Shown piece after piece: positions 3,338-30,320 of a stretch of 31,168 nt of DNA. The notes beneath the pieces are model-generated. The model worked only from the letters and a program-made list of their open reading frames with translations. It did no database searches and was not told the origin of the DNA. Every line of letters begins with the position of its first letter. Position 1 is the first letter of the stretch. Source of the DNA: Ignavibacteriaceae bacterium (GTDB lineage Bacteria > Bacteroidota > Ignavibacteria > Ignavibacteriales > Ignavibacteriaceae); contig JACAFA010000178.1 in NCBI GenBank assembly GCA_013388525.1, forward strand, positions 1-31,168. Direction: 5' to 3'. Position numbers and translations under genes: made by a program.

Positions 3338-6300
3338 TTATAATTTTCTTGCAACAACAACTACAGTCTTCATAGATTCAACGACACCGGAACCTTCGTT
3401 AATTGCTTCGAGGAAGATGATGTAAATTCCAATTCGTAAAGTTTGTCCATCATCGCCAATTCCATCAAATATAACTGAGCCGGAAGAACCGCTTGCCTGG
3501 TTGTTGGCGAGAGATCTCACGAGTCTTCCTTTGTTATCAAATATTTTTATGCGAACCTGTGAAGTTGCCTGAGTTAATTTGTAATTGATGATTGTGAAAT
3601 CTTCAAAGCCATCATTGTCCGGCGAGAATGGATTTGGTGAAACAGAAATGTTTGATTCTATATTCGGGTTAATAGTATAAATACTGTTCTGCTTTCCGGG
3701 TGTTGCACCAATAGGTGTTACAGAACTGCTCCAGTTACTAGGATCGTTGGCGCTAATGTTGGGATTTATTCTTTCAAGAGAAATATTTATGGTTGAACCA
3801 AAATTATCATTATGCCATTTATCAGAATACCAGACTGAATCAATAACATTTCCCTTGACATCTTTTAAAAGAATTAATTCTCCTGTATTAACAAGCCCAA
3901 GACTTGAAACTCCAACAACTGTTTTGAGCTGGGTTTCATCCAATCCATATTTAACTATTACCGATGAGTCAGCTGCTAACAAGAAGAAAGAATTGTTCGG
4001 CACCATTATCGGGATTTGTGAAAGTCTGTAATTGTTTTCGTTTTCATCTACAATTTCCCAGCCGCCAACATTTACTGAGTCACCGCTTAAATTTAAGAAC
4101 TCTATAAACTCTGAATTATCTTCACCGGGCTCAAACATAACTTCGTTGATGACCAGATCATTTCTTTCATAATCAGGAACATTCAATATTGAATTTGGTA
4201 AACCGGGAGTGCTTCCTTTGGTACTGAGAGAAGTTGTCCAGTTTGTGCTATCGTTTGTTGAAGCTTCAAGTGAAATTCTTTCTAGCGAAAGACCTCTCCC
4301 CCCACCCCAGGAAGAACGATAAAATAAACTGTCAATTATTCCATTTCTGAAATCATAAATGACAACTCCATCAGAAGTATTTCCAAGTGATCCAAAGTTC
4401 GAGAAGAAGACTTTTGCTGTAACTCCCGGATGAGCAGAATTGAATGAAGTATCTTTTGCAATTACAATATACTCTTCCGGCTGAATAAGAGCATCAGTAT
4501 TTACTATAAAACTTTTTGTTGGAGTTGTAAGCACATCACTGATTGACCAGTCCTTAATATTTATTATTTCACCCGAAACATTAACAAGTTCAACCCATTC
4601 TGGCTTGTTGGTTTCAGTATTATACATAACTTCATTAATCAGAATAATACTTCCGGGAAATCCAGGCTCAACAGATTTTTCAAAATAATTATTAAGTGTA
4701 TCCTCATCTGCTGCGTAAACTATTCTTACAGCAGTTAATATTTTTGAATTGATATTCTGAATTGGTGATGATGAAGTAACATTTACAGAATCACCAGCAG
4801 CAAGGTTTAATCCGGCTTCGATGCTAAGAAGCAAGTCAACAACATTGTTAGTATCTGTGTCAATATAAAACTCAACATTAAAATTATTTGCAGAAGATGA
4901 TCCGTTATTCTTTATAAAAGCAGAAATAAAAACATCATCACCTTCGACAGGAAAGCGCGGATTGAAATTTATTCCGGCAACAGAAAGATCAAACTGTTTT
5001 GGTGTAAGGCTGTTAATTCTTCCGGGTGTGCTTTGCTCAATATCAAATGAACTTCCCCAGTTTGAAGCAAGATTTGAATTAGCATTCACTGATAATCTTT
5101 CAAGTGAGTAGCCGTTAGTTCCTCCCCACTGATTTGAATAAAGAACTGAATCCATTTGTAGTCCACGGTTATCTTTAATAACCACACCATCAATATCATT
5201 ATTCAAAGATGGAAGCGAAATAACAAAAACTTCAGACGGGATAAAACGATGAAAATCAAAAATTGCAGAACTTCTGCTGAGAATAAGATATGAATTTGGT
5301 TGTATAATAACATCCTGATTTATTGTAACAGTTGTTGGAGTCGTAAGCACATCTCTTATTTTCCAGCCGTTAAGATTAACTGCAATATTAGTTCGGTTGA
5401 ATAATTCTATCCATTCCGGCTCGCCACCTAACGGTGTAAACATAATTTCGTTGATAACAATTGATTGAGCCGCCAATCCGGGTTCTATGATTTTATACAA
5501 CTTATTGTTTGTTGTATCCTGATCCTGAGTGAAAACTGCATTTACAACAAACCCACGTTGAGTTTGAATGTTTTGAATTAAATAATTGAAATTAAAAACT
5601 CCGGAATCATTTGCTGGCAGAAAAAGTGATTGAAGACTTTCTAAAAGCACATCCGGAATGGAATCAAGATTATTGTCTTCATAAAGCTCCAAAGAAAAAA
5701 CAGCAGAATTGTTACCTAAATTTTTGATCTTTGATGAAATTGATACTGTGTCTTCTTCGATAGGAAATTCCGGATTGAATAATATATCTTCAACAGCAAT
5801 ATCATAATCTTTTTCAGTCAGTGAATTGATAAAACCAGGAGTTGCCTTGAATTGACTTGTTGACGTTCCCCAGTTCGTCGGGTCCAGTGAAAAACGATTA
5901 ACTGAAACTCGTTCAAGAGACTTGCCATCAATATTGCCTCCCCAATCAGGATAGTAATAAAGTGAGTCGATCTTTGTGCCAATTGAATCTTTGATTGTAA
6001 CCGCGTCGCCGGTATTATTTAATGCGGGAAGATTTAACTGAATTATTTCTGATTGAACATTATAATAATTCAGGATTGATGAATCCCTTGCTAAAACAAT
6101 ATAACCATTTTCAGGAATGAATTTATCCGAGCTTGTTATCGTTACAGTAGTTGCTGCATCTGAAAATTTCCATTTCATTAAATTGATGGGAGTGGAAGTT
6201 CTGTTAAAAAGTTCCACCCACTCAGGCTCTCCTGTTGATGGTGCATACATAATTTCATTGATTACAACATCGTTGTAATTGGTTCCGGAAGGAAAAACAA

Positions 6301-7192
6301 TAAACGTTTTAACCAGCTGATTATTTTCTGGTTTCTCATCAGGTGCAAATAATACTTTGCCGATGATTTGATAATTTCCTGAAGTTAATGAGTCCATAAT
6401 TACACTTGCTGTTACAGAATCACCGGAAGCGAGATTAATGTATTGTTGAGTAAAAATTATTTCTCCCGGATCTGCTGTAGAATCAAAATTTGCATCATTA
6501 TAAATTTCAATTGAATACATATTCGCTGTGTTTGTCCCCTGGTTTTTAACTTGAGCAAAAACAGTAACGTCATCTCCTTCAATTGGAGTTACCGGTTGAA
6601 AAGATATTGAAGATAGCTGCAAGTCAAACTGAACAGGAGTAACCGAATTTGCAAATCCCGGAGTGCCATTAACAATAAGTGAATTTGCCCAATTACTCTG
6701 TGAGCTATCCTTTCTCATTATCTTTTTCTCATCTGAACGTCCCTGAGTATTATTTGCTGAATAAAAGTATGCTTCAAGAGTATCATTTACTGTATTAAGA
6801 AGCCAGATTGGTCTGTTCTCTGTATTCGACATTCCGGAGGTTCCAAAAGAATTATCGGATATTTTAACAACAAGCGCCTCAGAAGGAATTAAGCCATCAT
6901 AAATTCCTGAACCAAATGGATAGTCGCCTTCAAGAATTATAGCAAATGATTTTGGAGGGAGAATTGTTCCTTCGCCGGCATCAGTAATTACATCCGGACT
7001 GGAATTATAATATTTGACTTTAAAACTATTGATATCAATACTTTCTGTTTCACTTCTGTTGTATAATTCTATGAACTCATTAGGACCGGATTGAGGATTA
7101 AACATTACTTCGCTAAGAATCAATGTAGAATCAGATTGAGGAAAAACTAGAGCAGATAACAGAATAAATATTGGCAGCAGTTTTTGTAGCAT
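3338..7192 (-). CDS. Secreted multi-domain lamin-tail (LTD) surface protein
   Basis: Large exported protein of 1284 residues with a signal peptide (1-18, ending ALVFPQS). Five lamin-tail domains are recognisable from repeated openings such as VINEIMYAP...GEPEWVELFNR, at about residues 25, 307, 575, 847 and 1010. Three CARDB-like beta-sandwich modules, each containing PxEGDDVxxxAxxKNxG or a close variant, follow LTD 1-3 at about 195, 460 and 735. The LTD-plus-CARDB unit thus recurs about every 270 residues. The C-terminal 100 residues (VSPNPFSPDNDGFEDF, then KIFDNKGRLVRSL and GIYIIFLEA) form a FlgD/CHU_C-like Ig domain of the type found at the end of type IX secretion substrates. A structural or adhesive cell-surface role is likely; no catalytic motif is seen. 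It starts 12 bases after the SDR stop. Confidence 0.88.
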   Translation of the reverse strand: MLQKLLPIFILLSALVFPQSDSTLILSEVMFNPQSGPNEFIELYNRSETESIDINSFKVKYYNSSPDVITDAGEGTILPPKSFAIILEGDYPFGSGIYDGLIPSEALVVKISDNSFGTSGMSNTENRPIWLLNTVNDTLEAYFYSANNTQGRSDEKKIMRKDSSQSNWANSLIVNGTPGFANSVTPVQFDLQLSSISFQPVTPIEGDDVTVFAQVKNQGTNTANMYSIEIYNDANFDSTADPGEIIFTQQYINLASGDSVTASVIMDSLTSGNYQIIGKVLFAPDEKPENNQLVKTFIVFPSGTNYNDVVINEIMYAPSTGEPEWVELFNRTSTPINLMKWKFSDAATTVTITSSDKFIPENGYIVLARDSSILNYYNVQSEIIQLNLPALNNTGDAVTIKDSIGTKIDSLYYYPDWGGNIDGKSLERVSVNRFSLDPTNWGTSTSQFKATPGFINSLTEKDYDIAVEDILFNPEFPIEEDTVSISSKIKNLGNNSAVFSLELYEDNNLDSIPDVLLESLQSLFLPANDSGVFNFNYLIQNIQTQRGFVVNAVFTQDQDTTNNKLYKIIEPGLAAQSIVINEIMFTPLGGEPEWIELFNRTNIAVNLNGWKIRDVLTTPTTVTINQDVIIQPNSYLILSRSSAIFDFHRFIPSEVFVISLPSLNNDIDGVVIKDNRGLQMDSVLYSNQWGGTNGYSLERLSVNANSNLASNWGSSFDIEQSTPGRINSLTPKQFDLSVAGINFNPRFPVEGDDVFISAFIKNNGSSSANNFNVEFYIDTDTNNVVDLLLSIEAGLNLAAGDSVNVTSSSPIQNINSKILTAVRIVYAADEDTLNNYFEKSVEPGFPGSIILINEVMYNTETNKPEWVELVNVSGEIINIKDWSISDVLTTPTKSFIVNTDALIQPEEYIVIAKDTSFNSAHPGVTAKVFFSNFGSLGNTSDGVVIYDFRNGIIDSLFYRSSWGGGRGLSLERISLEASTNDSTNWTTSLSTKGSTPGLPNSILNVPDYERNDLVINEVMFEPGEDNSEFIEFLNLSGDSVNVGGWEIVDENENNYRLSQIPIMVPNNSFFLLAADSSVIVKYGLDETQLKTVVGVSSLGLVNTGELILLKDVKGNVIDSVWYSDKWHNDNFGSTINISLERINPNISANDPSNWSSSVTPIGATPGKQNSIYTINPNIESNISVSPNPFSPDNDGFEDFTIINYKLTQATSQVRIKIFDNKGRLVRSLANNQASGSSGSVIFDGIGDDGQTLRIGIYIIFLEAINEGSGVVESMKTVVVVARKL

Positions 7193-18437: not shown

Positions 18438-19556
18438 ATTAATTCCACCGATAAATCCGTTTCCACAAAACGCTTTGACTTCATAGATCAGTTCAGGGGC
18501 TTTGTTGGCATTTTAATGTTGCTCGGTCATAGTTCCTACTACTTTAACTCAATCTGGTTATATCTCGATCCTGCCGATCCATTAATCCCAAACTGGGAAC
18601 AATTTATTCTCAGATACATTGGCTACATCTGCGCACCTGGTTTTCTGATGATGAACGGTGCAATGGTTTGGTGGACATATCAAAGCAGAGTTCAAAAAGG
18701 ATCAACAGATTGGAATGCAAAATGGCATTTAATTCAACGGGGACTTTTTCTTGTATTTGTTCAAATTACATGGGTTAATTCTTCGTGGGGTGGTTTCAGT
18801 GAATTCAAACCTGAACATCTTGGAATAATTTCCACAATCGGCACATCAATGCTTCTTCTGACTTTAATAATCAAGCTGAAGTGGCAGTTGAGACTTTTTA
18901 TTGCATTAGCGATTTTAATAATCTATCCATTCTTACTAAAGATTGCTTACAATCCTGAAGTTTACTGGCACCAAGTTCTGATGCAATCATTTATTGATGC
19001 AGGTGATTTCAATAAATATCCAATCCTTCCATGGTTTGCGTTAGCAATTTTAGGTTCAGTTATGGCAACCGGTTGGTTAAAAGGTTGGAAAACAGATAAG
19101 CAAAAAATAATTTATAGTCTGACAATCGGAGCTGGTTCAGTTTTGATTGCAACGCTTATCCGAATGGGACGCGGTTTCGGTAATATATTTCCTTTTTCAG
19201 ATTTTGGTTCATATTCATTTTTCCTTGATCAAAAATATCCGCCAAGTCTTTACCACAATCTGTGGTTCTTTGGATGGGTTGTTATCGGTGTTGGTATTAT
19301 TATCACAATCAACAAATCATTCCCGAAACTACTTATGTTTCTGTCGATCGTGGGCAGAGTTCCTCTCTTTTTCTACTGTGTTCATATTGCAATACTTGGT
19401 TTAGTATCGAAAAGAATCGGATTCTTCTACCGTGAAGGTGAAGTAGTGGAAACGCTGATCGGATTTGCATTAATGCTAATTGTGATGCTGCCTCTGGCAA
19501 AGTGGTTTGGCGGTGTTAAGCAAAGAAGTAAAAATTATATAATCAGAATGATCTGA
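18438..19556 (+). CDS. Membrane acyltransferase (DUF1624/HGSNAT-like), apparent ATT start
   Basis: Multi-pass protein with about ten hydrophobic helices, resembling the heparan-alpha-glucosaminide acetyltransferase-like / DUF1624 and YeiB-type acyltransferases that move acyl groups across the membrane onto glycans. The first ATG (18516) would give 346 residues beginning MLLGHSS, which cuts off the family's N-terminal hallmark. Upstream in the same frame the sequence reads KRFDFIDQFRGFVGIL, containing the conserved D-x-F/L-RG motif before the first helix. No ATG, GTG or TTG lies in that frame after the stop at 18414-18416. ATT at 18438 lies eight bases after a GGAG (18426-18429) and would give 372 residues. 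I therefore propose an ATT start; an assembly error or a lost start codon is the alternative. It overlaps the next gene by one base. Confidence 0.7.
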   Translation: MNSTDKSVSTKRFDFIDQFRGFVGILMLLGHSSYYFNSIWLYLDPADPLIPNWEQFILRYIGYICAPGFLMMNGAMVWWTYQSRVQKGSTDWNAKWHLIQRGLFLVFVQITWVNSSWGGFSEFKPEHLGIISTIGTSMLLLTLIIKLKWQLRLFIALAILIIYPFLLKIAYNPEVYWHQVLMQSFIDAGDFNKYPILPWFALAILGSVMATGWLKGWKTDKQKIIYSLTIGAGSVLIATLIRMGRGFGNIFPFSDFGSYSFFLDQKYPPSLYHNLWFFGWVVIGVGIIITINKSFPKLLMFLSIVGRVPLFFYCVHIAILGLVSKRIGFFYREGEVVETLIGFALMLIVMLPLAKWFGGVKQRSKNYIIRMI

Positions 19557-20536
19557 TGATAAAAAAAATATTCATAAAATATTTTGACCTGATAATATTT
19601 GTTGTTGCCGCAATTACACTGATGTTTTTTATTTCAGGATGTGCAAGCCGGGAAGATTCACCTGTAAAACTCGATGATTCAATTCTCGTTTATCCATCAA
19701 AATATAAAAATGGAATTCTTGCAAAGATTACACTCGGCAATAAAATCAGTAAAAAAACCGGTAAGCCATTAAAAGGTGGTACAGTTTTCAGATTAGAAGA
19801 TAAAGCAAAACTGTTTGCAGTAGCTGATTTGGAAAATAAGGCGTATAACAATCAGCAGAATCTGATGTTCCATATCGACTGGTTAGATTCTTCCGGTAAT
19901 TCATTTTACAAAAAGCGAATTGACATTTCGCCGAAGGATTCAGTAAACTCAATAACCAGCTCAATTTCAATAGAGCCTCAAAAAAGAAAAGCAGGAAATT
20001 ATATTGTTCGCGTTTACCTTTTCAGGGAATTAATCGCAGAGAAGAAATTCAGACTTGTTGAATCAATAACTGACACAGTCTCTATTGAAAAGAAGAATAA
20101 ACCTGAAAAGAAAAAGAAATCAGAAGTAAAAGTTGAAAATCAAAAAACTGCAAAGCCAATAATCAAAACAGATAGCATTACCGCAAACATCATCCTGTGC
20201 AAAAAGATCAGTAAAAAAACAGGTAAACCGATAGGAGCGGGAACTGTATTCACAATTTATGATAAAGCAAAAGTAAAAGCAGTTGTAAATTTTCAGAAGC
20301 AGGAAATTAAGAATAATGAACAGTTGAAATTTTATTTTAACTGGATTGGACCAGATGGTAAATCGTTTTACAAAAAGCGTTTGGTTTATACAACCAGCAA
20401 TCCTTCATTTACTTTGACTAACTCAATTTCAATTGCGCCCGGAAAGAGGCAGCCGGGAAGTTATATTCTGCGTATCAGTTTTCGTAAGAAAATTATTGCC
20501 GACCAAAAATTTGAACTTGTGGCTCAAACGAAATGA
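19556..20536 (+). CDS. Lipoprotein with tandem duplicated domain and Lys-rich linker
   Basis: Predicted lipoprotein of 326 residues: N-terminal membrane segment (12-28) ending in a lipobox with Cys29 (FFISGC). Two homologous domains of about 115 residues follow, at about 53-167 and 209-323. Both open with KISKKTGKP and G-TVF, carry SFYKKR in the middle, contain SISI-P-KR--G-YI, and end near E/D-KKF-LV. They are joined by a Lys-rich linker (EKKNKPEKKKKSEVKVE). The corresponding DNA is also partly alike, so the duplication looks fairly recent. No known family is recognised; each domain looks beta-rich. Start overlaps the acyltransferase stop (TGATG), indicating coupling, and the gene converges on the poly-gamma-glutamate operon with 15 bases between stops. 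Binding an anionic polymer is speculation from charge. Confidence 0.8.
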   Translation: MIKKIFIKYFDLIIFVVAAITLMFFISGCASREDSPVKLDDSILVYPSKYKNGILAKITLGNKISKKTGKPLKGGTVFRLEDKAKLFAVADLENKAYNNQQNLMFHIDWLDSSGNSFYKKRIDISPKDSVNSITSSISIEPQKRKAGNYIVRVYLFRELIAEKKFRLVESITDTVSIEKKNKPEKKKKSEVKVENQKTAKPIIKTDSITANIILCKKISKKTGKPIGAGTVFTIYDKAKVKAVVNFQKQEIKNNEQLKFYFNWIGPDGKSFYKKRLVYTTSNPSFTLTNSISIAPGKRQPGSYILRISFRKKIIADQKFELVAQTK

Positions 20537-20551
20537 CACAAAACTTTTTTG

Positions 20552-21553
20552 TTAAGGAATTGATATAATTACTAAACCTTCCGATTCATCAGCAACGTAA
20601 ACATATTTGTCATCTATAGCCAGACCTTTTGCAAGTTTTGTCTGAACAGTACCTATCCGGACCGGTGCAGTAATATTTGATACGTCGAATATTTGTAAAC
20701 CTCTCAAATCTGTTGTTACGTAAGCTTTATTATCTTTATAAACAACCTCTTTTGCGTAACCTCCAGTAGAATAGCTGCCGATAATTTTTACATTAGCTGA
20801 ATCTGTATAATCAACTACATACAGACCTGATGTACCACAGGCAAGAAAAGCATAAGGTAAATCCGGATGAGCAATAACATCTTCAGCATAGCCGGGAGTA
20901 TCGACCCAGCCAGCCATTGGATATATTCCCCAACCACTTTGCAATTCGGAAATATTAAAAAGAGAAAATCCCATTTCACCGCAGGCAACAAGCAAATAAT
21001 TTCTGTCAGGACTAACGAAAACTGCCTGAGCAAAACCCGGGGCAGGAGTTTCCCCTCTTATATCAGGTTGTGTTGGGTAACTTATTTCCGAAACTTTAAA
21101 ACCATATTCACCAACTGCAGTAAATAAAAAATTTTCCCAGATATCAAAACCTTTTGCAGGTTTAAGCGCAAGGTTGGTTGCTGTAATAAAAGGATTAAAC
21201 GGGTCAATTGCATCAACGACCGAAACACCAAAAGCTCCTGCTGAGATGTAAACCACCGAGTCTTTAACTGCAACTTTATTGCTATATCCTTTTAAATTCT
21301 GAATAACACTTGAAAGTTCTTTAGGTGATTTACGATTAGAAATATTGATTATCATCAACCCGCCTTCTCCCTGGGTTACGTAAGCAATAGTATCTTGTAC
21401 TACCACATCCTGTGCATAACCCGAAGTTGAAAATTTACTGACAATTTTATAACCGCCATCACCACCGATAATTGATTCCGGGTCATTTGGTGTTCCGCAG
21501 CCTGCCAGTAAAATTAGTTCTAAAAACAGAATTAAAAATAAAATCTTTTGCAT
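20552..21553 (-). CDS. LVIVD-repeat beta-propeller lipoprotein
   Basis: Predicted lipoprotein of 333 residues with Cys19 at the end of a signal sequence (LILLAGC). The mature part is a run of seven LVIVD-type repeats of about 42 residues, each with the pattern GYAxDVxVxDxxAYVxxGxGGLxIxDxSxPxxPxxxG. Examples are TSGYAQDVVVQDTIAYV near residue 43 and GGYAKEVVYKDNKAYVTTD near 265. Seven blades suggest a closed propeller, usually a protein- or ligand-binding scaffold at the cell surface or periplasm; no enzyme motif is seen. It is the last gene of the six-gene unit that begins with pgsB, 32 bases after the barrel gene. Convergent with the duplicated-domain lipoprotein. A role in polymer anchoring or assembly is inference from position only. 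Confidence 0.82.
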   Translation of the reverse strand: MQKILFLILFLELILLAGCGTPNDPESIIGGDGGYKIVSKFSTSGYAQDVVVQDTIAYVTQGEGGLMIINISNRKSPKELSSVIQNLKGYSNKVAVKDSVVYISAGAFGVSVVDAIDPFNPFITATNLALKPAKGFDIWENFLFTAVGEYGFKVSEISYPTQPDIRGETPAPGFAQAVFVSPDRNYLLVACGEMGFSLFNISELQSGWGIYPMAGWVDTPGYAEDVIAHPDLPYAFLACGTSGLYVVDYTDSANVKIIGSYSTGGYAKEVVYKDNKAYVTTDLRGLQIFDVSNITAPVRIGTVQTKLAKGLAIDDKYVYVADESEGLVIISIP

Positions 21554-21585
21554 GTTATTTCTCTTATAAATGTTTGATATACTTT

Positions 21586-22734
21586 TTAAAAATTTATTAT
21601 ATAGTTGAAATTAATACCCAGCCGGTATTGTGTATAATCTTTTTCATTAGAAACATATTCCCTGTTAGCTTCCGCTGAAGTGCTCGATTCTCTTCCGAAC
21701 CAATGATAAAATGCAGTCGCTGAAAAATTTTCCGACAGCTCAATATTGTAATTGACATAAATACGATAATTGTAATCGTAACGTCCGGCGTGCAGAGGGT
21801 CCAACTCAAGATAATGTTCTGTTGTGTAGAAAGCTCTTAAATACTGAAAATCAACACTAACGTCATTATTTCGGGAAAAAACTTTGGGAAGCAAATAATC
21901 AATGCCGGCAAAGTATGAATGCTCGTAATTGGTAGCATCAGAATCATCAGAGTTTTCTTTGGTTTCATTTGGTTCATCGTATCCTTTAGCGTCAGAAGTT
22001 GTATAAAAATAACCGAAGTTGACATCAAGATTTTTGAACAGCGATTGATAAATTCTGAAACCAAACATATAATCATTACTATCATATTCGGTATTTGACT
22101 CATCTAGATAATATCTATCGTAAGCAAAGTAAAGCCGGGCTCTTGTTGTCTTCCATGGAAGTATTTGCTGAAGCCAGAGACTAAAATCATCTTTTGAAAA
22201 AATATACGGTCGGAATGTTTCAGGAGTATAACCATAATATTTTACCCAATCATCATCCCGGAAATGACGAACATAAAACTCCGGAATATAAGAATAGGAA
22301 AACTGAGCGGTAGTTGATGAAGCTATTTGCTGCCGGAAAAATATGTTAAATGTTGCCCAGGTTTTGATTGAGTTATTTGTATATGCGTCAGAATTATAGC
22401 CCGTACCAATTATAGTTTTCATCTTTCCGAAAAATTCATCTGTAAAGGTTAAACCAGCAGAATAACCAATGGTGAGATCATCGATACTGCTTATGTGAAA
22501 TCTTCCGGGGTCTTCCCCGTTTTTAAAGCGGTCAATATATTTTTCTGAATATTTTAAGATATTACTATCATAATAAGGTTTAACCGAAAGGCTTAATGCC
22601 CACTTGTTTGCTTTTTTCTTCTTTGGTTTATCATCAGCAAAAACTCCATCGTTAATTGTTGATGACAGAATAATCAGACAACACAAAAGGAACAGTTTAC
22701 AGGGCAGAAATTTTACTTTCATTAATATTTTCAT
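21586..22734 (-). CDS. Outer-membrane beta-barrel protein of the pgs operon
   Basis: Exported protein of 382 residues. Signal peptide about 1-33 ends in a small-residue cleavage region (NDGVFADD). The mature chain begins with a Lys-rich patch (KPKKKKANK) and then consists almost wholly of alternating aromatic/hydrophobic strands with acidic loops (DEPNETKENSDDSDATNYEH). It ends in phenylalanine (FNYIINF), the classic barrel-assembly C-terminal signal. The length suits a barrel of about 16-18 strands, large enough for a channel; not a recognised named family. The start is ATG 22734, preceded by GGAAAG; an in-frame TTG lies one codon upstream. The upstream gene stops three bases before that TTG, so they are co-translated neighbours. 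Context makes it a candidate outer-membrane exit for poly-gamma-glutamate. Confidence 0.8.
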   Translation of the reverse strand: MKILMKVKFLPCKLFLLCCLIILSSTINDGVFADDKPKKKKANKWALSLSVKPYYDSNILKYSEKYIDRFKNGEDPGRFHISSIDDLTIGYSAGLTFTDEFFGKMKTIIGTGYNSDAYTNNSIKTWATFNIFFRQQIASSTTAQFSYSYIPEFYVRHFRDDDWVKYYGYTPETFRPYIFSKDDFSLWLQQILPWKTTRARLYFAYDRYYLDESNTEYDSNDYMFGFRIYQSLFKNLDVNFGYFYTTSDAKGYDEPNETKENSDDSDATNYEHSYFAGIDYLLPKVFSRNNDVSVDFQYLRAFYTTEHYLELDPLHAGRYDYNYRIYVNYNIELSENFSATAFYHWFGRESSTSAEANREYVSNEKDYTQYRLGINFNYIINF

Positions 22735-22737
22735 CAA

Positions 22738-23655
22738 TTAAAATCTTTCCAGCTTAATATCTTTTTTAGGAAAAAGAATTTTTGCAAGTGTTGTATATTT
22801 ATCAAGCGAAACTATTTCATAAGTATGAGTACCCGAAGGAACAGCAATAACAATTTCATTAGCTCTACCGGGTGTTTTTTTATCATCCTTTTTATAACTC
22901 GTTACATCAGAACGATCAGAACAAAGCATATAAGTATTCTTTAACTTTTTATCTTCTCTGACTTCAATTCTATAATTTACCTTGCCTTTCATTTTGTAAT
23001 CAAACTCGATACGATTTAATACTCTTAATGTTGTAGGTCCGGCAACCTGAATTTTCAGGGGTTTATCAGAAGAATAACGATAATAAGTAACTACATCTTC
23101 ATTTGTTACCAGACTTACAGGATCATTCGGATAAACAGGCGTTAAAGAAATCCAGTCAATTTTCTTTTCTTTAATTTTAGTAAACAATACTCTCACACAA
23201 ACTTTTGCTTTATCAGAACCGTTCCATATTTCAATAGCGTTTTCGCCACGGGGCAGTTCTATATTAATATTTTCTCCAATTGAAGGATAACCAAGCGAAG
23301 CATTTTCAAAGTAAGCTTTACTATCAGGTTTAACATTATTAAAATCAACTTCTATTTTTTTACCACCATTGATTCTATAGTATAAAATATAACCGGATTT
23401 ATTTTCGTTTTGAGAGTTTAGATGTCTGCGCGTAATAATTTTAAGCTTGCCGGGACCACGAACGGAAAATACAGAGGGGTCATTAAATAATATCGGATAG
23501 TAATTTAAACTTTTTCCTGAGACGTTAATCGAAACTGGTGCATTTGCATTTTTCGGTACTAAGACTTTTGTTTTAGGTGCCGGAAAGCATAAAACTGAAA
23601 AGATTAGTATAAAGAGTATCAAAGAAATTAATTTATTTATTTTATGATTATTCAT
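22738..23655 (-). CDS. Exported protein with duplicated domain, pgs operon
   Basis: 305-residue secreted or periplasmic protein with a signal peptide (1-25, ending LCFPAP) and no lipobox at the right place. Two related beta-rich domains are visible, about residues 36-160 and 165-300. Matching elements are GPGKLKIITRRHL with GPTTLRVLNRIEF, YRINGGKKIEV with YRIEVREDKK, INIELPRGENAIEIW with IVIAVPSGTHTYEIV, and DKAKVCVRVLFTK with DKYTTLAKILFPK. I recognise no family or enzyme motif; the fold could be a jelly-roll-like binding module. It follows pgsW by 27 bases and abuts the barrel gene, so it is well placed to be a periplasmic or outer-membrane-associated part of a polymer export path. That role is inference. 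Confidence 0.75.
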   Translation of the reverse strand: MNNHKINKLISLILFILIFSVLCFPAPKTKVLVPKNANAPVSINVSGKSLNYYPILFNDPSVFSVRGPGKLKIITRRHLNSQNENKSGYILYYRINGGKKIEVDFNNVKPDSKAYFENASLGYPSIGENINIELPRGENAIEIWNGSDKAKVCVRVLFTKIKEKKIDWISLTPVYPNDPVSLVTNEDVVTYYRYSSDKPLKIQVAGPTTLRVLNRIEFDYKMKGKVNYRIEVREDKKLKNTYMLCSDRSDVTSYKKDDKKTPGRANEIVIAVPSGTHTYEIVSLDKYTTLAKILFPKKDIKLERF

Positions 23656-23682
23656 AATTCAATTTCTGTATAAAATTATTTA

Positions 23683-24816
23683 CTACAATTCCGGTTCCGT
23701 ATCATTTCTTTGAACGACTACCTGCTCATTACCAAGCCGGTGTCTTTTTCTTTCCATGAAAAAGACAAACGAAATTGCGATAGTTAAAAAAATTGTTACT
23801 CCTGAAGTAAGCAATACACTGTATCTCTTTTGAATAAAGATTTCACCTTCACCAGGACGTGGTAGTGGTGCCGGATTGATTTGTAATCCATACTGTTGCG
23901 CAAGCTGATTGACATTAAGAAGATGAATAATCGGAATATTTTTATCAGCCATTTCAATCAGCATACCTCTGACAGGGTAGTTTTTCATAGGAAGAGATTT
24001 TGATAAGCCGCTCGGAATGAAATTTACATTTTCAACCGAACCGATGCTTGATATTCCTCCGCCAACATTAATGAAAGCTTTAATCTTTTCTTTATTTCTG
24101 TGCTTATCATATATTTTCATTCTCTTTTGAATGCTGCTCTCAAGATGCTCTTCATTGATGAATTCAACTTTGTTTCTGTTGATGGCATCAACAATTAATT
24201 GTCTTCCTTCCGGACTAAGTCCTCTGCCTCTGTCAAGTCCGCCGCCAATTGAAGCTGCAACCGATTTATTCTTAAAAATCCCGGCATTGAACAAAATTTT
24301 TTCCATATCAAGCCAGGTATAATAAGGATCGTTTGCACCCCAGTTCGAAGCACCTACTGAAGTAATGATTATCGGTTTTAACTTCAAAGTCTGCACAGCA
24401 GAATGAACAGCAATATTCAACCCCGGAAATGAACCTGTGAACGCAATTGCAACCACATCATTTTTTTCTAGATCTGCTTCTTTAAGCATATCAACTACAA
24501 CTGCAGCAAAATTTGGATTAGTTGCTGTCAGCTTTGCTTCAATATATCCGCGATCAGTAGTAATTGGAGTAATATCCTGACCAATCAAAGCGGTTTCATT
24601 CGGGTCATTTATAACATCAACAAAAACACCTTTACGCATACGAAATTCTTTGAGGTATTCTGTGGCTTCTTTTGCAAGCCTGGCTGCTTCTAATTTTTGG
24701 TCGTAATATTTTAACTTAACATCTTCCTTACCATATTCAACAGCAAGAAAAGCCATTAAAGCTAAAAGTGATAATACACTTAATACTGTTTTTGAACCTG
24801 CGCTAAGATTATACAT
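23683..24816 (-). CDS. pgsW: Poly-gamma-glutamate system protein PgsW
   Basis: 377-residue protein matching the family named 'poly-gamma-glutamate system protein' (PgsW), which accompanies pgsB-pgsC in many lineages. It has an N-terminal membrane segment (about 8-26), a large extracytoplasmic or cytoplasmic domain with AIAFTGSFPGLNIAVHSAV, ITSVGASNWGANDPYYTWLDME and AFINVGGGISSIGS, and a C-terminal membrane segment (about 338-358) followed by a basic tail (MERKRHR). The biochemical role is not established. It lies 20 bases after pgsC, with a 27-base gap to the next gene. In Gram-positive loci PgsA/CapA and PgsE fill the accessory slots; neither is here, so PgsW may take part of that function. 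Confidence 0.88.
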   Translation of the reverse strand: MYNLSAGSKTVLSVLSLLALMAFLAVEYGKEDVKLKYYDQKLEAARLAKEATEYLKEFRMRKGVFVDVINDPNETALIGQDITPITTDRGYIEAKLTATNPNFAAVVVDMLKEADLEKNDVVAIAFTGSFPGLNIAVHSAVQTLKLKPIIITSVGASNWGANDPYYTWLDMEKILFNAGIFKNKSVAASIGGGLDRGRGLSPEGRQLIVDAINRNKVEFINEEHLESSIQKRMKIYDKHRNKEKIKAFINVGGGISSIGSVENVNFIPSGLSKSLPMKNYPVRGMLIEMADKNIPIIHLLNVNQLAQQYGLQINPAPLPRPGEGEIFIQKRYSVLLTSGVTIFLTIAISFVFFMERKRHRLGNEQVVVQRNDTEPEL

Positions 24817-24836
24817 TTGAATATCAGTAATAAAAA

Positions 24837-25289
24837 TTATGTTGGCAGCAATTCGCCGTTAAAAATAATAATCACAATCAACCTAACAAGAACGGAGGTA
24901 ATAAATAACACACATAAAGTTCTGTAAATACCCTGTTTGCCAAACCAATGAGCAATCAAACCGGGGACAACCCAGCCGACAGCCTGCAATTGTACGGTGC
25001 TTGAGGTTAAATCAATAAATAAAAATTGCCTTGAAAAATTCGCAAGCAAACAACCCACGAGAAGACACAATACCATTTGCCTTCTTCCATAAAGAAAAGT
25101 ATAGTGCCCTAAAATTTTGATGATAAGATAAGTTGATAAGCTGACGAGAATAATTCCAATCAGTCTATCAGGTTGTGAAAGCTGTAAAGCAATGTAGCCG
25201 GGAACAACAATTCCACCGGCAGCAAGTCCAAATACTTCATAAGACAATAAACTAAAAATAAGACCGAGTGTTATTGCAAGTTCAACCAT
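24837..25289 (-). CDS. pgsC: Poly-gamma-glutamate biosynthesis protein PgsC/CapC
   Basis: Integral membrane protein of 150 residues, exactly the usual PgsC length, with about five hydrophobic segments. The N-terminal half carries the conserved GLAAGGIVVPGYIAL followed by QPDRLIGIILVSLSTYLIIK; the middle has YGRRQMVLCLLVG, and the C-terminal half repeats the theme as VGWVVPGLIAHWFGKQGI. PgsC associates with the ligase PgsB at the inner membrane and is required for polymer synthesis and passage. Its ATG overlaps the pgsB stop by eight bases (ATGGTTGA), a sign of translational coupling and of a fixed subunit ratio. Confidence 0.95.
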   Translation of the reverse strand: MVELAITLGLIFSLLSYEVFGLAAGGIVVPGYIALQLSQPDRLIGIILVSLSTYLIIKILGHYTFLYGRRQMVLCLLVGCLLANFSRQFLFIDLTSSTVQLQAVGWVVPGLIAHWFGKQGIYRTLCVLFITSVLVRLIVIIIFNGELLPT

Positions 25290-26469
25290 ATACTACCCTA
25301 CGGTTTTCAAAGAAGTCAGCAACTTTGCCGCCCATACCACCCATATTTCCAATTGCAACAACGGTAGATTGATCGGTTGTATATGCAAGTATTGCTTCGA
25401 AAACTTCTTCCGGTTCAGTCCAGCCTATGTTCACAATTTTATTTCTTTTAATTCCATTACCAACTGCTAATTCTTCTACCACTTCAGCCGATTGCCCGAT
25501 TAATATCAAATAGTCATACTGATCATTTAATTCCGAACCTATCATTCCGATTAGCTGTTTTGCTCTATCCAGACGATCCTGTCTTGTATTCAGTAAAATA
25601 ATTTTAACTCCCCGAAGCCCGATTTCATTTTTGATTTTTTCCCAGATCATTAAAGTTGATTGAGGATCATTTGCGGCAAAGGCATTAAAAAAATTTATCT
25701 GCTTCTGAAAAACATTTACTCTTGATAGTCTTAACGCACCGGCATCAGGAATTGCCTTGTACATTCCCTTAAGCGCGACTTTTCTATCTATACCGAGATG
25801 TTCACTTATTGCAAGTGCGAGAGCTACATTTTCTTTATGCTCGATGTAACCAAATCCTTTCATCTCTTCTGCAGTAACTGAATTTTCATCAGCTAAATGA
25901 ATAGTTGTATTCCGCTTTTCTGAAATTTCTTTCAGCTTATTAAACATTACTTTTTCTGCTGTGAACAGATGTTGATTTTTGGGAATAGTATTTCCGAGCG
26001 CTTCAGTAATTTCGGGAAGTGTATAGCCCATTATATCTATGTGATCTAATCTGACGTTGGTAATTACACCGATAGTTGAATGGAGCATTTTCATCTCAGT
26101 TATCCACTGATACTGTGGTTGAAGCGCCATACATTCCATAACAATCGCCTGTGCTTTTCTGTTTGAAGCAAATCTGACTATTGATAATTGCTCAATTATG
26201 TTCGCTCCGGCTTTTCGGTAGATAGCAACCTCGCAACCGTTTTCTAAAATTAACCGAGGATAAGTTCCTGTAACTTTTGTAATGGTTGGAATTCCGTTTT
26301 CACGTAAAGCAGCACCTATCAGTCTTGTTACACTTGACTTTCCCCTTGTTCCGTTAACATGAATTCTGATCGGGATAGAATATATTTTTTTCTGATGCAG
26401 AAAAAATTCTATCAGTCCATAAACAGAGACTGCAATAAACAATATCAATAAAACTGTAAAAACGAACAT
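25282..26469 (-). CDS. pgsB: Poly-gamma-glutamate synthase PgsB/CapB
   Basis: ATP-dependent amide ligase that extends poly-gamma-glutamate through an acyl-phosphate intermediate, related to Mur ligases. 395 residues, typical length. An N-terminal membrane anchor (2-24) is followed by the P-loop VNGTRGKSS (38-46, Lys44), TGTYPR, the MALQPQYQW segment, TNVRLDHIDIMG (the Mur-type Mg/substrate region), INFFNAFAANDPQST, LNTRQDRLDR, and the C-terminal GNMGGMGGKVADFF. All wording agrees with CapB/PgsB, not with folylpolyglutamate synthase or MurC-F. Stereochemistry (D- or L-glutamate) cannot be read, and no glutamate racemase gene is in the window. It leads the operon; the 77 bases upstream show no clear promoter, only a weak AT hairpin (26501-26517), so read-through from the C25 gene is possible. 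Confidence 0.96.
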   Translation of the reverse strand: MFVFTVLLILFIAVSVYGLIEFFLHQKKIYSIPIRIHVNGTRGKSSVTRLIGAALRENGIPTITKVTGTYPRLILENGCEVAIYRKAGANIIEQLSIVRFASNRKAQAIVMECMALQPQYQWITEMKMLHSTIGVITNVRLDHIDIMGYTLPEITEALGNTIPKNQHLFTAEKVMFNKLKEISEKRNTTIHLADENSVTAEEMKGFGYIEHKENVALALAISEHLGIDRKVALKGMYKAIPDAGALRLSRVNVFQKQINFFNAFAANDPQSTLMIWEKIKNEIGLRGVKIILLNTRQDRLDRAKQLIGMIGSELNDQYDYLILIGQSAEVVEELAVGNGIKRNKIVNIGWTEPEEVFEAILAYTTDQSTVVAIGNMGGMGGKVADFFENRRVVYG

Positions 26470-26546
26470 ATCAACTTATAACTTTTGAACTTTCAGAATG
26501 CTTTAATTTTATTAAAGAAACTTTACTGACAGTTTACTGCTATCGC

Positions 26547-29500
26547 TTACTTTAATAGAATCATTTTTCTTGTTTGAACAAAACTATTCGCCTGAATCCT
26601 GTAAAAATAAACACCTGAACCAACCTTAAACCCGGAACTGTTTTCACCATTCCAGACAGTATGATATCTGCCTGCAGACAGGTCTCCTTCATATAAAGTT
26701 CTTACCAATATTCCGTTAATATCATAGATGCAAAGTTTAACAAACGCTTGTTCCGGAATTGAATAACTGATATGAGTTTCAGGATTAAATGGGTTTGGAT
26801 AGTTTTGCTCTAAAATATAATTATCCGGAATTCCGCTGACTTCATCATCTTCATTAACCGATACAATCGTAGGTGAATTCGTTGTGAATTTTATCGCATA
26901 ATTATTTCTAAGTTCTGTGGCTGTAGTTGAATAAATATCATCGAAGACATATTGAAGAGCAATGGTCTCAGTATTGTCTTCGATTCCAACTGTATTGCCG
27001 CCAGCTTCTTCTACAATTTTGTATTGGAAAATAATTTCACCGTCACCTGTTTGAGTAGGATAATATACAGGATCAAGCAATAAAACCTGAAAAGTTTCTG
27101 TGCTGAGGGTATCAGTTGCGTGTTTAACTTTATCCCATTCGATTACAAATCTGTGATTTGCTGCATCATTGAAATAATAGATTTTACCTGTCTCATTCGG
27201 ATAAGTTGAGAATAAGTCATCCCAGAACGGACAGACCATATTTTTAATATCATCCAGTTTTGGTAATGGAAAGTTTTGAGAAGCAATCTGTGTCCCGTTG
27301 CCCAAAGCAATCCAGCCATCTGTACTAATTCTTACTTGCGAAAAATTATTTCCATAATATTTAAAATTAAACGGAAGTGAAATTGTTTGAGTGAAGTTAC
27401 TATTTCCAGCCGGTCTCGGGAATAAAGTCCCCGTAGAATTTATTTCCACCCAATCATATTGCGGAGACTGCTCAAACAGAACATCATCACTTGAATATGC
27501 ATAATAACCATAAGCATCAGGACCTGTTGGATCAAAACCTGAAGGCATTGCAACAGAAATTGTGAATGAGTTAATATTAGAATAAGGATATAAACCGTTT
27601 TGAGTTGAAAGCAAAACAGAATATAAAGCATCGTACTGAACAGGACAGGTTTCACTTACTTTAACAATAAAATAATCCTGATTATTTATTGCGCTACTGT
27701 CTTTTAAAATTGTATTGAAAGTACCAACAGAATCAAGTATAGTGATATACTCATCTGTGCTGCGTAAAATCCCATTCACTTCCGGGGCAACATCATCACC
27801 GGCATTTTTAATTTTCAAAAAAACTTTAACGGTTTCGCCGGGATCCATACGATAATTTCTTAAAATATTTCCTTCGTCATCAATAATATTTTCGATATAA
27901 ACTAACTGACAACCGTGAACGGTTAATATGTAATAATACACCCAGTTGGAAGTTTCACTTGTTACTGTCAGTTTAAATGGGATTGTAAATCCAACTGCAC
28001 ACTCAGGCTTTACAAAAAACTGAAACGGAGCGCCTGTTACTGATTGATCCGGTCCAATGTTTCCGAAACTAACAGGATTAGTTGTAATAACCTGAACGAT
28101 ATTTATACTATCAGGCACTGATAAAACTGCCGAAACATTGTTTGCTGTTTGAGTGCCATAATTTTTCAAAGTGAAAGTTATCGTACCATTTTCATTTGGG
28201 TTTATAAGTCCATCAAGATTGCCATCGGTGTCAGTAACAACAGGATTACCGAATAAAGCAACATTCTCAATTCCCTGAACAACCTGCATCGTACCTTCAT
28301 ATGGTATAACAGTACCACCACGCACTGTAATGCTGAGTTCTCCAAGTAATGAAGGACTGATGTTAATCATAGCAATACCATTTAAATTTGTCTTGCTCAA
28401 TTCATAAACATCATTTCCCGAAATACATATCTGTGCATTTGGGACAGGTAATCCCGTGGTGGAATAGTTCACTGTTATCTGAATTTGGTTAAATCCATTT
28501 ATAACAGTGTCCGGATGGGAAACATTCACTGCCAGTGGAGTAGCTTTCCAAACATGTAAACTTGGATCACCAAGTACGTGATAAATTCTGAAATGATATT
28601 CTACCCACATTGTATTACCAAAGACTGAATACATAAACATCTTTCCATTTAAAAGTGCTTCACCCGGGCTATCCATTGGTGGTTCAGAAGGTATCATTTG
28701 CTGAAACATTCCGGTGTAGATACCCATATCAATTTTATTATTATAAGTTGTATGAGTGTTTGAAGTTGGACCTACAAAAGCACAGGCACCTCTTGGCTCG
28801 GTCAATGTTCCTAGTTGAACCCATTCTTCTCCAAAACAGTTTCCACCACTTGCATTAAACATTGCAACTCCGCAGCCAATACTTGTTACAAAAGTAAGTT
28901 TTTGACCATTGTTTAATGAACTAACATTGGAAGTTTGAAATTGAAAACATGAAGCCCACCATCCTGAACTCCATCCTTCTCCTCTGTAGTTCAAATAACT
29001 TCTGCCGTTATTTATCATATTAACTATCGTTGCAACATTACCGGGACAGGGATATCCGTTATACATTGAATCTACAGAAATAAAATTTCCATTTAACAGC
29101 ATTTGCTGTGCAGTAAATCTTTTGGTTTCTCTTTGTGATGCATAAGCATCGTTAGCACAGACCAATCCTTTTTTAAACCAATCTACATCCTGAACGTATG
29201 GAGTCTTTTCATAACCTAAAAATTTATTTATCATAACCTGTAATCTGTAATCCGTTTGATTGGTAAATCTGCCAATCATCATTTCCGGAATGAAATCATT
29301 GCCTTCTAATTCTACGAAGTAATCATCATAAGCAAAAGTATAATCATAGCTTATTAATTTTATCGGAGCTATACCTGCATCACCAATCAGAAGTACGTGG
29401 GTAGGAGCAACTTGCCAGTTATTGTAAGAATCAAGAATATGATCTTTAACGGCAGTAGGATTATTACCGGTTGCACCGATTTCACTGAATTTCGTTATAT

Positions 29501-30320
29501 GAATATAAGTCCCCGTTTTTTGTCTCCAGGCAGCATAAGCCTGAAAGCTATTTACAAACTCATCGGGCATAATACACAACATAAAATCGTAACCACTCTC
29601 CATCCCATTATATTTTCTCTGCAACACCTCTTCATAATTAAAAATGAAATTTCTGTAGAGTTTAGCAAACGAAGGTGCAATTGGTCTATCAAGAGTTGTT
29701 TTAGGATTGATTCCTGAGCCTGGTGTGTAATTGATTTTAATTGTAATTGACGTAACTGCCTGAATTTCTTTTCTTGCCGGTGAATATCTGATTGGAAAAA
29801 TTGAAACACGTGCAATACGGAAATCTCTGAAGACCGCAGGATTTTCAACCGTTGCAAAATTTCCAGGATAAAGTTCTTCCGATTGATATGCTTCGTTATA
29901 TTCCACATACGGTGTTTCCGGTTCTCCTTCAATCCAGCTTTCTCTTGCAGGAGGAATATTTATTCCTTTAATAGTCTGAACCGCACTGGTTTCCAGAACT
30001 TCAACACTAATGTTTCCCTGATCCGGTATTGCGAGTATTTTAGCAATATGAGGAATTTCAGGAAAGCCTACTTGTGTGGTAGCAGCTTCTGAATTAAAAC
30101 TTATTGACTGATACTTTTTTCCTTCAAAAGAAAATTCATTTATCTGAAAGCCTGATATCTCGACTTTAATTATGGTAATGAAATCATTATCGCTTATTAG
30201 TTGAACTTTTGGCTGGGAATTCGGAATGTTGTTTTTATCAAGAGAAATCCATTGTGATAAGGAAACGGACTGCATCAGGATAATTAAAAGACAACTAAGT
30301 GATTTTATATTTTTCATCAC
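26547..30320 (-). CDS. Gingipain-like (C25) secreted protein with type IX sorting domain
   Basis: 1257-residue exported protein. Parts: signal peptide (about 1-22), propeptide-like domain (about 35-235), C25 peptidase fold (about 240-620), an Ig-like domain (about 630-690, cf. gingipain IgSF), a CARDB/COG1361-like stretch (about 690-850), an all-beta domain with YDWVEINSTGT and TDGWIALGNG (about 950-1150), and a C-terminal type IX secretion sorting domain (NYPNPFNPETHISYSIPE to the final MILLK). In the peptidase fold Cys483 (VTSIGCGVAMF) aligns with the gingipain nucleophile. At the position of the gingipain His (NYTGHG) this protein has NYRGEG, so Glu448 stands in for His. It may be inactive, or use a changed mechanism. 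An AGGAG SD precedes the ATG. It lies 77 bases upstream of pgsB on the same strand. Confidence 0.88.
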   Translation of the reverse strand: MMKNIKSLSCLLIILMQSVSLSQWISLDKNNIPNSQPKVQLISDNDFITIIKVEISGFQINEFSFEGKKYQSISFNSEAATTQVGFPEIPHIAKILAIPDQGNISVEVLETSAVQTIKGINIPPARESWIEGEPETPYVEYNEAYQSEELYPGNFATVENPAVFRDFRIARVSIFPIRYSPARKEIQAVTSITIKINYTPGSGINPKTTLDRPIAPSFAKLYRNFIFNYEEVLQRKYNGMESGYDFMLCIMPDEFVNSFQAYAAWRQKTGTYIHITKFSEIGATGNNPTAVKDHILDSYNNWQVAPTHVLLIGDAGIAPIKLISYDYTFAYDDYFVELEGNDFIPEMMIGRFTNQTDYRLQVMINKFLGYEKTPYVQDVDWFKKGLVCANDAYASQRETKRFTAQQMLLNGNFISVDSMYNGYPCPGNVATIVNMINNGRSYLNYRGEGWSSGWWASCFQFQTSNVSSLNNGQKLTFVTSIGCGVAMFNASGGNCFGEEWVQLGTLTEPRGACAFVGPTSNTHTTYNNKIDMGIYTGMFQQMIPSEPPMDSPGEALLNGKMFMYSVFGNTMWVEYHFRIYHVLGDPSLHVWKATPLAVNVSHPDTVINGFNQIQITVNYSTTGLPVPNAQICISGNDVYELSKTNLNGIAMINISPSLLGELSITVRGGTVIPYEGTMQVVQGIENVALFGNPVVTDTDGNLDGLINPNENGTITFTLKNYGTQTANNVSAVLSVPDSINIVQVITTNPVSFGNIGPDQSVTGAPFQFFVKPECAVGFTIPFKLTVTSETSNWVYYYILTVHGCQLVYIENIIDDEGNILRNYRMDPGETVKVFLKIKNAGDDVAPEVNGILRSTDEYITILDSVGTFNTILKDSSAINNQDYFIVKVSETCPVQYDALYSVLLSTQNGLYPYSNINSFTISVAMPSGFDPTGPDAYGYYAYSSDDVLFEQSPQYDWVEINSTGTLFPRPAGNSNFTQTISLPFNFKYYGNNFSQVRISTDGWIALGNGTQIASQNFPLPKLDDIKNMVCPFWDDLFSTYPNETGKIYYFNDAANHRFVIEWDKVKHATDTLSTETFQVLLLDPVYYPTQTGDGEIIFQYKIVEEAGGNTVGIEDNTETIALQYVFDDIYSTTATELRNNYAIKFTTNSPTIVSVNEDDEVSGIPDNYILEQNYPNPFNPETHISYSIPEQAFVKLCIYDINGILVRTLYEGDLSAGRYHTVWNGENSSGFKVGSGVYFYRIQANSFVQTRKMILLK

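Follow-up and report, generated by a model that had tools for sequence, protein, structure and literature searches.

A conserved pgsB-pgsC-pgsW cassette with a predicted outer-membrane barrel: a candidate module for carrying poly-gamma-glutamate to the cell surface

The Gram-positive PgsBCA and CapBCADE systems for poly-gamma-glutamate (PGA) share the PgsB and PgsC families with the gene cassette described here, which has PgsW instead of PgsA/CapA and carries outer-membrane and periplasmic genes in addition. The accessible portion of one survey places PGA systems, modelled on CapABCDE, in most phyla and states that diderms require at least one extra protein for translocation across the outer membrane (PMC5542703). 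In Cloacimonadota, a two-membrane phylum, PGA genes (capBCA) have been described and 4′,6-diamidino-2-phenylindole staining was interpreted as PGA; in the available part of that article the operon is of the CapA type and has no outer-membrane step, the words "outer membrane" occurring 0 times in the main text (PMC13082233). None of the matches listed from the open-licence literature dealt with a route for PGA across the outer membrane; among them, the name PgsW led to unrelated papers and "poly-gamma-glutamate system protein" to Francisella work. Here, we analyzed a 31,168-nucleotide stretch of the Ignavibacteriaceae bacterium contig JACAFA010000178.1 (hereafter, the window), in which a pgsB-pgsC-pgsW cassette offers named candidates for every envelope step of PGA passage across the outer membrane.

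Six genes of the cassette lie on the minus strand of the window in the order pgsB, pgsC, pgsW, orf4, barrel, and LVIVD, with successive gaps of −8, 20, 27, 0, and 32 bases. All six open reading frames (ORFs) were found where a previous sequence-only reading of this DNA had placed them, confirming its gene order and spacing. The operon extent that it proposed (20552-26469) holds for these six genes, but the conserved unit runs beyond both ends and takes in three more. A scan for promoters and terminators was uninformative (44 promoter-like and 6 terminator-like sites versus 41.5 and 6.3 in shuffles). The first gene, pgsB (25282..26469), encodes a Mur-ligase-like poly-gamma-glutamate synthase, in which GTRGKSS was read; the protein scored 437 bits against TIGR04012 (NCBIfam cut-off, 222.7). 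PgsC (24837..25289), the membrane partner of PgsB, scored 118.3 bits against TIGR04011 (NCBIfam cut-off, 96.45) and 108.8 bits against PF14102 of Pfam. The poly-gamma-glutamate system protein PgsW (23683..24816) scored 337.7 bits against TIGR04332 (NCBIfam cut-off, 100) and has one hydrophobic stretch near each end, as judged by eye. On the strength of family membership, the three proteins would together form a PGA synthase, and the polymer of the cassette is presumably PGA. No CapA-family match was found among the nine window proteins of the region 18516-30320 in a search of Pfam and NCBIfam at E 0.1.

The products of the next two genes, orf4 and barrel, exceeded no Pfam cut-off and matched nothing in NCBIfam at E 0.1. 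The orf4 gene (22738..23655, minus strand) encodes an exported protein that is strongly cationic and consists of a duplicated pair of beta-sandwich domains. Its halves match one another with a probability of 99.1% (E 1.3e-18), bearing out the duplicated domain noticed earlier, and both are carbohydrate-binding module-like in the structural model (predicted local distance difference test score, 91). With the first 25 residues removed, the window protein has an isoelectric point (pI) of 9.59; a pI above 8.5 was obtained for 37/37 orf4 proteins versus 4/43 other exported-like proteins taken from the same loci with a simple filter. The charge, the fold, and the constant place after pgsW suggest that orf4 may guide the polymer chain. 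Homologues of orf4 also occur in records named Candidatus Eisenbacteria (P0312 and P0314). The product of the barrel gene (21586..22737, minus strand) was modelled as a 14-stranded outer-membrane barrel, supporting the original assignment. Among the matches listed, its closest folds were CymA and OmpG, and it has the 14-stranded fold of CymA/OmpG-type porins. The extracellular loops are its most conserved part, with a mean top-residue frequency of 0.74 versus 0.57 in the strands. Wzi was not among the fold matches listed for this 14-stranded model, which excludes nothing.

When genome contigs were scanned with an alignment built from barrel sequences only, 23 loci came up, in records labelled Ignavibacteriaceae, Bacteroidales, other Bacteroidetes, Marinifilum, and Chlorobi. 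Wherever these contigs reach, pgsW (20/20) and orf4 (22/22) lie beside the barrel. In 395 genomes sampled from the phylum of L001, an Ignavibacteriaceae metagenome-assembled genome, TIGR04332 gave 14 PgsW matches, 13 of them over the cut-off. The barrel and orf4 profiles, for which at most 4 and 5 candidates per genome were scored, each matched 7 of these genomes; the seven were identical and all matches adjoined pgsBCW, an agreement with a chance of 1/C(395,7) = 3.5e-15 when kinship is ignored. Further PgsW searches gave 8/119 for the class and 27/98 and 12/198 for orders. The collection amounted to 64 unique loci, of which 42 have at least one of orf4 and the barrel and were assigned to type 1, and 22 have neither and were assigned to type 2; 23 of the type 1 loci were barrel-selected, and the other 41 of the 64 were all PgsW-selected. 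Among these 41 loci, orf4 was present in 19 and the barrel in 15, never without orf4, and 22 had neither. L118 was dropped as identical in sequence to L009, and close duplicates, for instance L008 and L013, were both kept. The short loci L024-L036, L050-L075, and L077-L090 gave way to longer stretches of the same places or came from genomes already counted (L001, L003, L005, and L020). Neither a partial pgsW in L037, which scored below the cut-off, nor the second fragment, L078, entered the tally. Whether a contig was long enough to judge the absence of a gene was decided with a contig-length rule.

The gene set has stayed together through at least two changes of order: the barrel and LVIVD genes stand in front of pgsB in L005, and in L020 and L048 the C25 gene is at the far end and an HGSNAT-family gene is in front. 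The barrel-scan linkage, the same 7 of 395 genomes, the PgsW-selected loci, and the rearranged but intact set rule out chance adjacency, and the association of orf4 and the barrel with pgsBCW is close to certain. The proposal that the downstream genes accompany pgsBCW is thus upheld for one pgsBCW clade, spanning Ignavibacteria, Bacteroidales, and other Bacteroidetes/Chlorobi, but not for the 22 of 41 PgsW-selected loci without them; outside that clade, the downstream genes are indeed rarely beside pgsBCW. Conservation of the cassette extends across records of Ignavibacteria and Bacteroidales at the least, and its natural rearrangements and gene swaps mark modules.

The sixth gene (20552..21553, minus strand) encodes an LVIVD-repeat lipoprotein that scored 77.9 bits against PF08309 (cut-off, 20.2), with an LLAGC lipobox recognized by eye. 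It is present in 30 of the 36 type 1 loci of sufficient length. In L046 (6134-7167) and L107, two ORFs stand in place of a single LVIVD gene, which may reflect either sequencing error or decay. Upstream of pgsB, the cassette includes a gene for a C25-like (gingipain-type) protein (26547..30320, minus strand), which scored 187.4 bits against PF01364 (cut-off, 23); its C-terminal sorting domain scored 36.7 bits against TIGR04183 (cut-off, 23), marking it as predicted type IX secretion cargo. An orthologue is present in 24 of 27 sufficiently long type 1 loci. We examined the residues that we take to be the C25 His-Cys catalytic dyad, with positions from the gingipain alignment: the Cys is kept in 24/24 proteins, and the His position holds Glu in 23/24 and Gln in 1/24. 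The window protein, with Glu and Cys, thus lacks the dyad. This count leaves out L091 and one L117 fragment, which lack the columns, and the L007 protein and first L010 piece, which lack the peptidase core. Two genes downstream of LVIVD lie on the plus strand, one for an HGSNAT-type acyltransferase (18516..19556; PF07786, 38.4 bits, cut-off 22), with homologues in 23/30 type 1 loci of adequate length, and the other for a cationic lipoprotein (19556..20536; pI 9.97), with homologues in 18/27. A putative repeated stretch in this lipoprotein was seen by eye only. These two genes are also on the opposite strand in L001, L002, and L018 (Ignavibacteriaceae) and in L046. No HGSNAT match was found in L047, the next nearest locus by PgsW. 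Nine loci carry, in this order and on one strand throughout, the C25-like, pgsB, pgsC, pgsW, orf4, barrel, LVIVD, HGSNAT-type, and lipoprotein genes. C25-like, LVIVD, and HGSNAT matches occur in 0/22 loci without orf4, just 10 of which satisfy the contig-length rule. Elsewhere in the window (3338-7192), a 1284-residue protein contains five PF00932 lamin-tail stretches and, at its C-terminus, a type IX secretion-type domain (CHU_C).

In a PgsW tree of 59 rows, from which pieces shorter than 250 residues were left out, a single group (98/96) takes in type 1, type 1b, and L112. L112 has orf4 and no barrel match. Type 1b comprises seven loci (L044, L045, L094, L095, L097, L098, and L099) in one PgsW clade (100/100), with C25 or LVIVD matches in 0/7, where three contigs are long enough for C25 and five for LVIVD. 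In both type 1b loci scanned, the protein upstream is sortilin-like and has a type IX secretion tail, and a gamma-glutamyltranspeptidase (GGT) gene lies further upstream in 3/7; the L097 contig reaches, yet shows neither C25 nor GGT. Two of the three orf4 loci that have no barrel on a contig that reaches carry a TonB-type outer-membrane barrel after orf4: a TonB-dependent-receptor-like barrel occupies this slot in L098 (6001-8664) and L099 (7652-9895), with 260 and 234 bits against OMP_b-brl_3, where related loci have the 14-stranded barrel. Type 2 loci carry DUF6305 in 20/22, the other two contigs being too short, and GGT in 12. In type 2a (L038-L043, L049, L103-L106, and L110), DUF6305 and GGT accompany each other in 12/12 loci, and a DctM/TRAP-like permease and an AspA/AstE-like enzyme are present in the seven checked (L038-L043 and L049). 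In the type 2b locus L101 (4725-9784), pgsW is followed by DUF6305, a permease-like protein, an AspA/AstE-like enzyme, and a C69-family dipeptidase, a set that perhaps serves recycling or import rather than capsule formation. A relationship of orf4 to DUF6305, the domain found after pgsW in type 2b, was considered and rejected, profile similarity being absent (probabilities of 0.1%). Genome G004 carries a type 1 (L004) and a type 2a (L049) pgsBCW locus together. In 44 loci, C25 and GGT never occurred together (C25 alone, 24; GGT alone, 15; neither, 5; Fisher p 6.7e-8), although a GGT gene farther away could have been missed on 33 type 1 contigs, which fall short of the 7 kb rule. Because the PgsW tree classes are clades with few changes, this exclusion is not independent evidence, and as a sign of replacement it is a lead, not proof.

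We lean toward the view that the cassette is a dedicated periplasm-to-surface module for a gamma-glutamyl polymer, which is produced at the inner membrane and conveyed to the outer face of the cell. In this scheme, PgsB, PgsC, and PgsW would synthesize the polymer at the inner membrane, the two cationic beta-sandwich domains of orf4 would hold or guide the polyanionic chain across the periplasm, and the 14-stranded barrel would be its outer-membrane exit or docking point. Outside the cell, the LVIVD lipoprotein and the C25-like protein might act on the emerging polymer, and the HGSNAT-type enzyme and the cationic lipoprotein might modify or retain it. The sequence-only reading, which had given the last three of the six genes roles in transit, exit, and anchoring, is partly supported: transit gains from the charge and paired beta-sandwich of orf4, and the barrel from its model, whereas passage through the barrel, anchoring by LVIVD, and the export role of the cassette as a whole are inferred. 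A bolder version, which is tentative and rather unlikely, sees a dedicated polyamino-acid secretion pathway across the outer membrane, distinct from polysaccharide exporters, in which orf4 would guide the chain to the barrel and a Cys-Glu C25-like protein would replace CapD (GGT), cutting or transferring the chain.

The main rival, possible but not likely, holds that the barrel is not a pore and is instead a surface receptor that docks or anchors a polymer exported by another route, as Wzi does for group 1 capsule. The strong loop conservation, the joint relocation of the barrel and LVIVD genes in L005, and the TonB-type barrel in the same slot of L098 and L099 fit a docking role. Against it, the cassette genes tallied include no second outer-membrane pore gene that is constant, the porins CymA and OmpG are the nearest folds among the matches listed, and an extended chain can fit within the width of a 14-stranded barrel. 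That the downstream genes are mere neighbours with unrelated roles is hardly credible: the other-strand position of the last two window genes and the absence of LVIVD in all five type 1b loci judged long enough would suit it, but the barrel and orf4 shared the same 7 of 395 genomes, at the probability given above, and the set outlasts rearrangement in L005, L020, and L048.

Several observations limit or weigh against the reading as a dedicated export module. LVIVD, the candidate anchor, is missing from 6/36 type 1 loci. Outside Bacteroidetes/Chlorobi-type records, context rests on one plasmid match, that of the fusobacterial species Cetobacterium somerae (NZ_CP143320.1, L120), which shares pgsB-pgsC-pgsW in a two-membrane bacterium but differs in having GGT, DUF6305, a TRAP permease, and a desuccinylase nearby, resembling type 2a; no orf4, barrel, LVIVD, or C25 is annotated in the 24.6 kb examined. 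Excerpts of two articles list Fusobacterium as a gram-negative PGA producer (PMC3815933) and describe PGA purified from the broth supernatant of recombinant Escherichia coli with pgsBCA (PMC3815934); a dedicated channel may therefore not be essential, and the release of PGA from E. coli with no such gene added also favours docking. Part of a further article reports that the capsule of Francisella LVS is independent of capB and capC (PMC4688374), a warning that these families may serve other roles. The Francisella report, together with the acyltransferase and two lipoproteins of the cassette, would suit a product different from a long PGA capsule: the synthase might, for example, add a short gamma-glutamyl tail to a protein or lipid of the surface, with the cassette decorating this carrier. 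We consider this improbable, as PgsB, PgsC, and PgsW all exceed their NCBIfam cut-offs and orf4 is strongly cationic, as expected of a polyanion partner. For the export module that we favour, the question of PGA passage becomes one for deletions and binding tests.

The cassette also differs from known outer-membrane exporters. Neither a tetratricopeptide repeat scaffold, as in the synthase-dependent systems BcsC, PgaA, and AlgK-AlgE, nor a Wza-type Poly_export/SLBB outer-membrane protein was matched among the nine window proteins in Pfam and NCBIfam. Synthase-dependent exporters (Bcs, PgaA, and AlgE) have 16 to 18 barrel strands, versus the 14 modelled here, and export polysaccharide, whereas the polymer of the cassette would be a polyamide. 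The cassette barrel is comparable to Wzi, an 18-stranded lectin barrel of the outer membrane, in its link to a capsule and in a surface side that may bind polymer; the polymer is different. The C25-like protein resembles gingipain and PorU in its C25 domain, propeptide, type IX secretion tail, and catalytic Cys position but differs from them in its Glu or Gln at the catalytic His position; through it, a PGA locus is linked to type IX secretion by a protein with an altered active site. Like the cassette, the CapBCADE cluster includes a surface enzyme acting on the polymer, the GGT-type CapD, and the cassette has its C25-like protein where GGT might be.
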